In this document: positions 19,342-23,482 of the stretch, in pieces
How positions within the stretch are numbered: position 1 is the stretch's first letter
Layout: each line of letters opens with the position of its first letter
From: an uncultured Lachnospiraceae bacterium
GTDB lineage: Bacteria > Bacillota > Clostridia > Lachnospirales > Lachnospiraceae
Direction: 5' to 3'
DNA: 64,000 bases
NCBI GenBank assembly: GCA_947175035.1
Contig: CAMWLG010000010.1
Coordinates: 1 to 64,000 of the forward strand
Notes under the pieces: model-generated
Told to the model about the DNA's origin: nothing
What the model saw: the letters and a program-made list of their open reading frames with translations, nothing else
Databases searched by the model: none
Program-made: the position numbers and the translations under genes

Positions 19342-20115
19342 CTATACGGAATCCTGCTGTGCTTTCATCTCAGCCCTGCGCTTGCGGATACCGTCGAGAA
19401 TTACTTCTTTTTTCTCAATTAATTTATTCTTTTCCATGGCGGGCACACCTTTCAGACGGTATTCCATGCCAAGCTTCTCATATTTGGACTCTCCCATGGT
19501 GTGATAGGGGAGCGCGTCCAATGCCTTCAGATTGGAGAATTGACCGATAAAGTAGCCAAGTTCAAACAGATATTTGTCATCATCCGTGTAACCGGGGACA
19601 ATGACATGACGAATCCACATATCCACCTTTTTCTCATTCAGATAGGCGGCGAATTTCAGGATATTAGTGTTGGGCTGCTTCACCAGATCTTTGTGCTTCT
19701 CAGGATCGATATGCTTGATATCCAGCATCACCAAATCGGTCAGTGTCATCAGATGATCCAACTTCTTCAGCCATTCTGTGTTGTCGGGGTTGTAGGCGAT
19801 GCCTGAGCTGTCAATACAAGTGTGGATGCCCTTTTCCTTGGCCAGCGTGAAGAGGTCAATCAGGAAATCCACCTGCATCAGTGGTTCTCCTCCCGTGACC
19901 GTGAGACCGCCGCCGTTCTGGTAGAAGGCGCTGTTGCGCTCATACTGCTCTATAATGTAGGAAGGCTCCATGAGCGTGCCGCTGTTCATCTCCCAAGTGT
20001 CAGGGTTGTGGCAGTAGGCGCAGCGCATGGGGCAGCCCTGAACAAATACAACAAATCTTGTGCCGGGACCGTCAACGGTTCCAAAACTTTCCAATGAATG
20101 AATTCTCCCTTGCAT
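19342..20115 (-). CDS. pflA: Pyruvate formate-lyase activating enzyme (radical SAM)
   Basis: IHSLESFGTVDGPGTRFVVFVQGCPMRCAYCHNPDTWEMNSG with CxxxCxxC motif. Confidence 0.96.
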   Translation of the reverse strand: MQGRIHSLESFGTVDGPGTRFVVFVQGCPMRCAYCHNPDTWEMNSGTLMEPSYIIEQYERNSAFYQNGGGLTVTGGEPLMQVDFLIDLFTLAKEKGIHTCIDSSGIAYNPDNTEWLKKLDHLMTLTDLVMLDIKHIDPEKHKDLVKQPNTNILKFAAYLNEKKVDMWIRHVIVPGYTDDDKYLFELGYFIGQFSNLKALDALPYHTMGESKYEKLGMEYRLKGVPAMEKNKLIEKKEVILDGIRKRRAEMKAQQDSV

Positions 20116-20219: not shown

Positions 20220-20254
20220 AAAAAGGAAAGCCATAGCAAACGCTATGGCTTTCC
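20220..20254 (-). terminator. Intrinsic terminator at the end of the split pfl operon
   Basis: On minus strand GGAAAGCCATAGC-GTTT-GCTATGGCTTTCC followed by TTTTTC. Confidence 0.85.
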
Positions 20255-20273: not shown

Positions 20274-20516
20274 TTAGATTGCCTCGTGGAAAGTACGAGA
20301 AATTACATCAGCCTGCTGCTCGGGAGTCAGCTTAATGAAGTTTACTGCATATCCGGATACACGGATTGTCAGCTGAGGATAATTCTCGGGATGTTTCTGG
20401 GCATCCAATAAGGTATCTCTGTTCAGAACGTTTACGTTCAGATGATGACCGCCTTTTGTTGCATAGCCATCCAATAAATTTACAAGGTTGTCAACTTGTG
20501 CTGTGTTTGCTGCCAT
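20274..20516 (-). CDS. Stand-alone glycyl-radical domain protein (detached PFL C-terminal domain, GrcA/YfiD-like)
   Basis: [80 protein letters not shown] radical loop; AGGAGG RBS. Confidence 0.93.
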
Positions 20517-20567: not shown

Positions 20568-20771
20568 TTATTTATAGTCATCCAGTCCCTCGTGTAAAGT
20601 GGGTACACTGCAGGCCAACGGTGTTCTGGAACAATCCGTACAGCCCATTGTCTGAACGTTCTTTGATGCTTCCTCTTCTGTGGCAGTGTCTACATTTACA
20701 TGCCCGACACCGTTTGCCATGCCGGAATCCAGCATTTTTACAAGATCGTCAATCATCTGTTTCTCGTCCAT
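20568..20771 (-). CDS. 67-aa protein resembling the N-terminal half of a glycyl-radical domain, without Gly loop, with three Cys
   Basis: MDEKQMIDDLVKMLDSGMANGVGHVNVDTATEEEASKNVQTMGCTDCSRTPLACSVPTLHEGLDDYK; AAGGAG RBS; between PFL body and radical-domain ORF. Confidence 0.75.
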   Translation of the reverse strand: MDEKQMIDDLVKMLDSGMANGVGHVNVDTATEEEASKNVQTMGCTDCSRTPLACSVPTLHEGLDDYK

Positions 20772-20865
20772 AGTGTCTCCTTTATACTACGTTAGATAGT
20801 GTTTCCATACCAGGCATCAGGAGATAAAAGAGATATCTCCCGATACTATAGTATGCTTTTGTTTA

Positions 20866-20942
20866 TTACTTATTCAGATCTAACCCGATATCAGGCGATA
20901 TCGTGACCGAGTTACTTATTTGTTCAAATCTAACTCGATATC
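20866..20942 (-). repeat. Direct duplication of PFL 3' end (27-nt units at 20916-20942 and 20866-20892)
   Basis: GATATCGAGTTAGATTTGAACAAATAA (in gene) and GATATCGGGTTAGATCTGAATAAGTAA (downstream). Confidence 0.85.
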
Positions 20943-23051: not shown

Positions 23052-23080
23052 ATTATAAGAAAAACAGTTGTCAGAGTCAA
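23052..23080 (-). promoter_or_regulatory. Sigma-A type promoter for pfl operon
   Basis: Minus strand TTGACT-17 nt-TATAAT. Confidence 0.7.
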
Positions 23081-23234: not shown

Positions 23235-23290
23235 GTAACAAATTGTTAGGACAAGTACCTGCATGACAGGTGGTCAGAGAGGAGAAAAAC

Positions 23291-23482
23291 ATGAGTGGAA
23301 TTACAAGGGAAATGACGATTGGTGAAATTTTGCGCGCGAATCCTGATGTGGCGCCTGTATTGATGGATGCGGGCATGCATTGTCTGGGGTGCCCTTCGGC
23401 GCAGGGTGAGTCTTTGGAGGAGGCTGCCATGGTTCATGGGATAGATATTGATTCTTTGATGGAAGCGATAGAATCTCTGTAG
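23291..23482 (+). CDS. DUF1858 domain-containing protein
   Basis: [53 protein letters not shown]. Confidence 0.9.

Follow-up and report, generated by a model that had tools for sequence, protein, structure and literature searches.

A conserved 67-residue cysteine protein encoded between the body and the separate radical domain of split pyruvate formate-lyase is a candidate trans-acting thiol arm

In gut Lachnospiraceae, pyruvate formate-lyase (PFL) is a central enzyme of fermentation, and oxygen destroys it at its radical glycine. The enzyme needs two reduced neighbouring cysteines in its barrel (C406-C407 in the PFL body described here) and its turnover, unlike that of ribonucleotide reductase (RNR), makes no disulfide. 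Binding and activation of a spare radical domain by E. coli PFL depend on its segment 696-733. Some other glycyl radical enzymes are encoded beside small cysteine-containing partners, the HpdC-type iron-sulfur subunits, which bind two clusters with many Cys and His ligands. Without its radical domain in place the PFL barrel stands open, as happens when YfiD rescues damaged E. coli PFL (PMC8683613). Class I and class II RNRs carry a tail with a cysteine pair in place of the class III radical domain (PMC9669993), and where the class II enzyme is split, dithiol exchange for NrdJa is carried out by NrdJb, the subunit that bears the Cys (PMC4520616). Split PFLs with a cysteine tail are already known to structural biologists: PDB entry 38lb (739 aa) is a split-type PFL with the tail ...TIENKPDCACAADASAK... 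and the motif NKPDCACAA, and its companion 38la (687 aa) ends before the tail. A search for GrcA3, the autonomous glycyl radical domain already named in NCBIfam, found no GrcA3 chain in these two entries. In the journal literature that was searched (preprints lay outside it) no paper was found on GrcA3, on split PFL or on the 67-aa trans protein that is the subject of this work.

The stretch of DNA analysed here, referred to as the window, comprises 64,000 nucleotides and encodes on its minus strand a protein of 67 residues (M1-K67; Table 1). Its translation bears out the initial annotation in that C44, C47 and C54 are present and the glycyl loop RVSGYAV is missing, and the ribosome-binding site ascribed to the gene stands five bases before the start codon. 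The gene is flanked by a PFL body, which stops short of the radical domain and ends in a tail without Cys, and by a separate GrcA3, and is hence the middle gene of a split-PFL unit. The sole strong terminator on the minus strand follows GrcA3, and none lies between the PFL body and GrcA3. By these signals, the PFL body, the 67-aa protein and GrcA3 form one transcription unit ended by the terminator, in agreement with the operon that had been proposed, while the downstream gene for PflA has a separate promoter-like site. All three genes of the unit share one reading frame in the window; a translational fusion of PFL and the small ORF was considered and dropped, as the frames differ in most relatives. 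AlphaFold models of read-through chains reached a pLDDT of 47 for the body plus the 67-aa protein and of 38 when GrcA3 was added, too low for any part to be placed. The spacer after the PFL body (20772-20915) holds, by eye, a near duplicate of the gene's 3' end, GATATCGAGTTAGATTTGAACAAATAAGTAA followed by GATATCGGGTTAGATCTGAATAAGTAATAA.

Table 1. Features of the split-PFL locus and the evidence for each
Feature	Position	Strand	Evidence
67-aa Cys-pair protein	20568..20771	(-)	420 relatives; pN/pS 0.18
N-half, residues 1-34, presumed docking module	20670..20771	(-)	homologous to glycyl radical domain start (helix + beta10)
C-half motif T41-G62 TMGCTDCSRTPLACSVPTLHEG, with C44, C47, C54	20586..20651	(-)	conservation; similar motif at PFL body C-termini
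Ribosome-binding site AAAGGAG	20777..20783	(-)	sequence; 5 bases upstream of ATG
PFL body, 679 aa	20916..22955	(-)	TIGR01255 1089 bits, model positions 5-665 of 744
GrcA3, autonomous glycyl radical domain, 80 aa, RVSGYAV	20274..20516	(-)	NF038360 161.5 bits (cut-off 158); PF01228
Intrinsic terminator after GrcA3	20225..20254	(-)	13-bp stem + T tail
Promoter-like site upstream of PFL body, TTGACT-17-TATAAT	23052..23080	(-)	consensus match only
PflA, PFL activating enzyme (radical SAM)	19342..20115	(-)	TIGR02493 293 bits

The initial annotation had called for a search for homologues, and the protein proved to be conserved far beyond this strain, with 420 relatives in GTDB contigs; within its order, about 20% of the sampled genomes encode it. 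In comparisons with 55 relatives of the same length, the median pS was 0.60 and pN 0.12, and the pN/pS of about 0.18 indicates that the ORF is not due to chance. Judged on its sequence, it is a real, translated-looking and strongly conserved gene. Purifying selection is stronger in the C-half (pN 0.057) than in the N-half (pN 0.145), and TMGCTDCSRTPLACSVPTL, from T41 to L59, is invariant in 71 unique close relatives. Across 34 diverse members of the family the invariant positions are reduced to C54 and P57; 32 members have C47, the other two retain C44, and all 34 have at least two cysteines. The C-half motif of the family reads C-x(5-7)-AC-x-x-P-T-L-x-x-G-hydrophobic-D. In two species (L170/G378 and L171/G259) a TAA directly after GCTDCAK cuts the protein, leaving a shortened form without C54 and the PTL end. 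No relatives were found in the viral contigs searched, no family match in Pfam or PHROGs and nothing significant in the PDB with the family profile; neither Pfam nor the PDB yielded a match to the C-half.

The likeness to the radical-domain protein that the initial annotation had seen by eye is borne out by profile comparison for residues 1-34 only. The N-half matched the GrcA3 profile in hhalign with 96.8% probability (score 54, E 2.9e-10 for this single comparison), and the top score among 20 column shuffles was 13.6. The family profile repeatedly matches GrcA3 in genome searches, and it also matches the same segment of full-length PFLs (744-806 aa) in about 20 genomes from other families of the phylum. 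In E. coli PFL the aligned counterpart comprises residues ~683-709, i.e. the helix LMDGY and strand beta10 (HLNVNV). The protein thus resembles GrcA/YfiD and GrcA3 in its N-half, with helix and beta10 strand (xHLNV), but differs from them in that it has a Cys motif in place of RVSGYAV and cannot carry the radical. The loop RVSGYA is missing from the ORF and from all aligned relatives, the score for NF038360 (16.4 bits vs the cut-off of 158) is confined to residues 3-32, and Pfam gave no match; the homology to PF01228 and GrcA extends to the N-terminal helix and the beta10 strand. The C-half as read from the alignments is a Cys motif and not a radical domain, and the radical-domain-like half is probably only the dock. 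A second, distant kind of small protein (L178:2948-3202 and L180:3229-3456) has the same N-half and another Cys-containing C-half, HHLGRCDVGSPWAKGTVxNCDA; neither gene is near PFL, and the copy in L180 precedes a gene for an AAA ATPase.

The tie to split PFL, which the initial annotation had proposed to check, is strict. In a sample of 396 genomes of the order, at least 107 encode an autonomous short GrcA3 and hence a split PFL, and all 81 genomes with the 67-aa protein fall within this group (hypergeometric P 8e-62 on the GrcA3 matches listed, a value that ignores kinship). GrcA3 directly follows the small ORF in 80 of 80 kept loci, and a PFL body directly precedes it wherever the sequence suffices. 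In one lineage (G273, G380, G318, G294) and in G387 the gene lies outside the operon yet has been retained. A relative of the same genus whose PFL is unsplit (G006) is without it. Among the matches listed, 26 split PFLs occur without the 67-aa protein, and 23 of these have a Cys tail on the C-terminus of the PFL body, for example ECGNQACNIPNIMESIDNE, LECGVDSACAIPNLMVAVDDWK, GSGCEAGSCAIPNLEEGLDRE or LEPDCACCEPN. The three others are two PFLs with neither tail nor protein (G183, G393) and one at a contig end. PFL bodies that coexist with a separate 67-aa protein have no Cys tail, and in cis-tailed bodies the Cys motif is not accompanied by a beta10 mimic. The loci of the former two PFLs (L193 in G183 and L177 in G393) are natural tests of whether the Cys module is dispensable.

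As in the class of cis-form tails, the organism has an autonomous GrcA3 and the Cys motif of the window is located outside the PFL body, after its end. Of 16 distinct tails that hold Cys, 11 contain [AS]C-x-x-P-[NT]-hydrophobic, vs 0.02% of shuffles. When 13,272 six-frame ORFs were ranked with a profile of the C-half only, seven C-termini of PFL bodies, some of which stem from one locus fetched twice, came directly behind the family and before all other ORFs (E 0.003-0.09), and the PFL tail of G207 was matched in a whole-genome search (E 0.009). The commonest cis form is CxCC, which resembles the C-half in its place and in C-x-x-P-N only, and CxCC tails were not found by the C-half profile in the 13,272 ORFs; a common origin of CxCC tails and the C-half appears likely. 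In an outlying, more distant split PFL clade beyond the order (f101) the tail has one Cys, NFACSEPNVTIDEK (ACSEPN). On a tree of 79 PFL bodies, built by a quick method after removal of the tails, the motif changed between cis and trans at least seven times, and five of these changes are forced by well supported branches; two loci (L143, L144) were scored as having neither form although they carry the 67-aa protein, which leaves the count unaffected. PDB entry 38lb likewise has a split-type PFL body followed by a Cys motif, but in cis, with no separate docking protein and with a motif of the CxC(C) type.

Lineages that lack the small ORF bear a similar Cys motif at the C-terminus of the PFL body, which points to the Cys half as the functional cargo. 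A motif that sits in some cases on the enzyme and in others on a small protein equipped with the enzyme's own docking segment is best read as cargo plus dock. We therefore favour, with a confidence somewhat short of an even chance, the reading that the 67-aa protein is a detached, trans-acting Cys tail, which would dock through its beta10 mimic and guard or re-reduce the catalytic Cys pair. The PFL body would have lost its glycyl radical domain, now supplied separately as GrcA3, and the 67-aa protein would attach to the body by its N-half, a copy of the helix/beta10 attachment segment. Docking would bring the mobile pair C47/C54, joined in close relatives by C44 as a third cysteine, to the barrel's open mouth. 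There it would most likely act as a thiol arm that caps, protects or re-reduces C406-C407 (E. coli C418-C419) during the absence of GrcA3 for activation or after its destruction by oxygen; a fresh GrcA3 could then restore PFL activity. Several observations count against an arm of this kind, namely the single-Cys tail of f101, the prevalence of CxCC, the absence of both forms in G183 and G393 and the lack of C54 in G259 and G378. Moreover, as turnover of PFL makes no disulfide, the enzyme would have use for a reductant arm solely in repair or protection.

The docking segment itself invites another explanation. The initial annotation had suggested a placeholder at the domain site, and occupancy of that site gains support from the N-half, which aligns with the helix/beta10 segment that GrcA3 also uses. 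In such a role the beta10 mimic would complete the barrel and the Cys loop would plug the active site in competition with GrcA3, keeping the body folded but off; in E. coli PFL, contacts between beta10 and beta9 are believed to keep the radical loop in position (PMC8683613). However, cis-tailed bodies carry the Cys motif without the mimic, so that the conserved function does not lie in blocking the beta10 slot, and we consider a placeholder or inhibitor unlikely. The same cis tails, which are unlike 696-733, also speak against a reading of the protein as a trans replacement for that segment of E. coli PFL, i.e. an assembly factor recruiting GrcA3 and/or PflA. The split body ends near E. coli residue 695 and the 67-aa protein has part of the 696-733 region; when E. 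coli PFL is cut at 695, binding of YfiD becomes too weak to measure and activation is 32-fold less (PMC8683613). The most conserved part of the 67-aa protein, however, is the Cys motif, which is missing from E. coli PFL, and such a recognition element is to our mind improbable, ranking behind the placeholder.

Still less probable is a metal site, with iron-sulfur or zinc held by C44, C47 and C54, that would sense oxygen or supply electrons to PflA. The three cysteines are invariant in the 71 close relatives as CxxC-x6-C, a weak look of a ferredoxin half-motif was noted (NuoI, 12.7 bits, E 0.91) and a ferredoxin gene is nearby, but only two cysteines are general in the family and one is left in the cis tails of f101, and database comparison yielded only the weak GrcA3 match of the N-half in NCBIfam besides the empty results for Pfam and PHROGs. 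The analogy with the Cys-rich small subunits of some other glycyl radical enzymes, suggested in the initial annotation, is not supported for the same reason: in contrast to the HpdC type, which is also a small Cys-containing partner encoded beside a glycyl radical enzyme, the 67-aa family has no family match and two conserved cysteines across 34 diverse members, short of a full set of cluster ligands. That the protein is a degenerate, functionless copy of the radical-domain gene, as homology of the N-half to GrcA3 and the missing Gly loop of the C-half might suggest, is refuted by the conservation data, i.e. the strongest selection falling on the new C-half, the retention of the gene after it left the operon and the motif held in common with PFL tails.

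If the detached thiol arm is compared with the RNR systems, the likeness is one of arrangement: NrdJb, too, is a separate small subunit, and in it and in class I/II RNR tails a C-terminal Cys pair serves the active-site cysteines of a barrel enzyme with a fold akin to that of PFL; most relatives have the pair in cis and a few in trans. The systems differ in that reduction is required every turnover in RNR and not in PFL, and in that only the 67-aa protein has a radical-domain-like dock. No RNR chain was hit up to E 10 in the PDB search with the family profile, so that the protein may be said to work like an RNR tail and not to be one. Whether split PFLs acquired a redox-active Cys tail, in cis and repeatedly in trans, in the place of the glycyl radical domain is a broader proposal that we regard as possible but doubtful; if true, glycyl radical enzymes would offer a living parallel to the presumed step from class III-like to class I/II RNRs with their Cys-rich C-termini. 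The split enzyme gives an experimental handle on the exchange of a radical domain for a thiol tail, a question otherwise posed only for RNR ancestry. A fragile part made as a cheap replaceable protein, together with a Cys module that is nearly always present, be it in cis or in trans, suggests a built-in repair cycle, which E. coli has only as an add-on, and a hitherto unnamed family of 67-aa proteins gains a partner and a testable role.

Two further observations concern the surroundings of these genes. The divergent neighbour in the window (23270-23482, plus strand) encodes a 70-aa hybrid-cluster-associated redox disulfide protein (TIGR03980), and a protein with the CxGC pattern of this type was present in the fetched locus of 42 of 52 close relatives and in 9 of 53 diverse loci; it is a possible redox partner of the Cys pair. 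In two genomes (L199 in G257 and L200 in G177), second, stand-alone copies of GrcA3 lie away from the PFL operon, and these are perhaps true spare parts.
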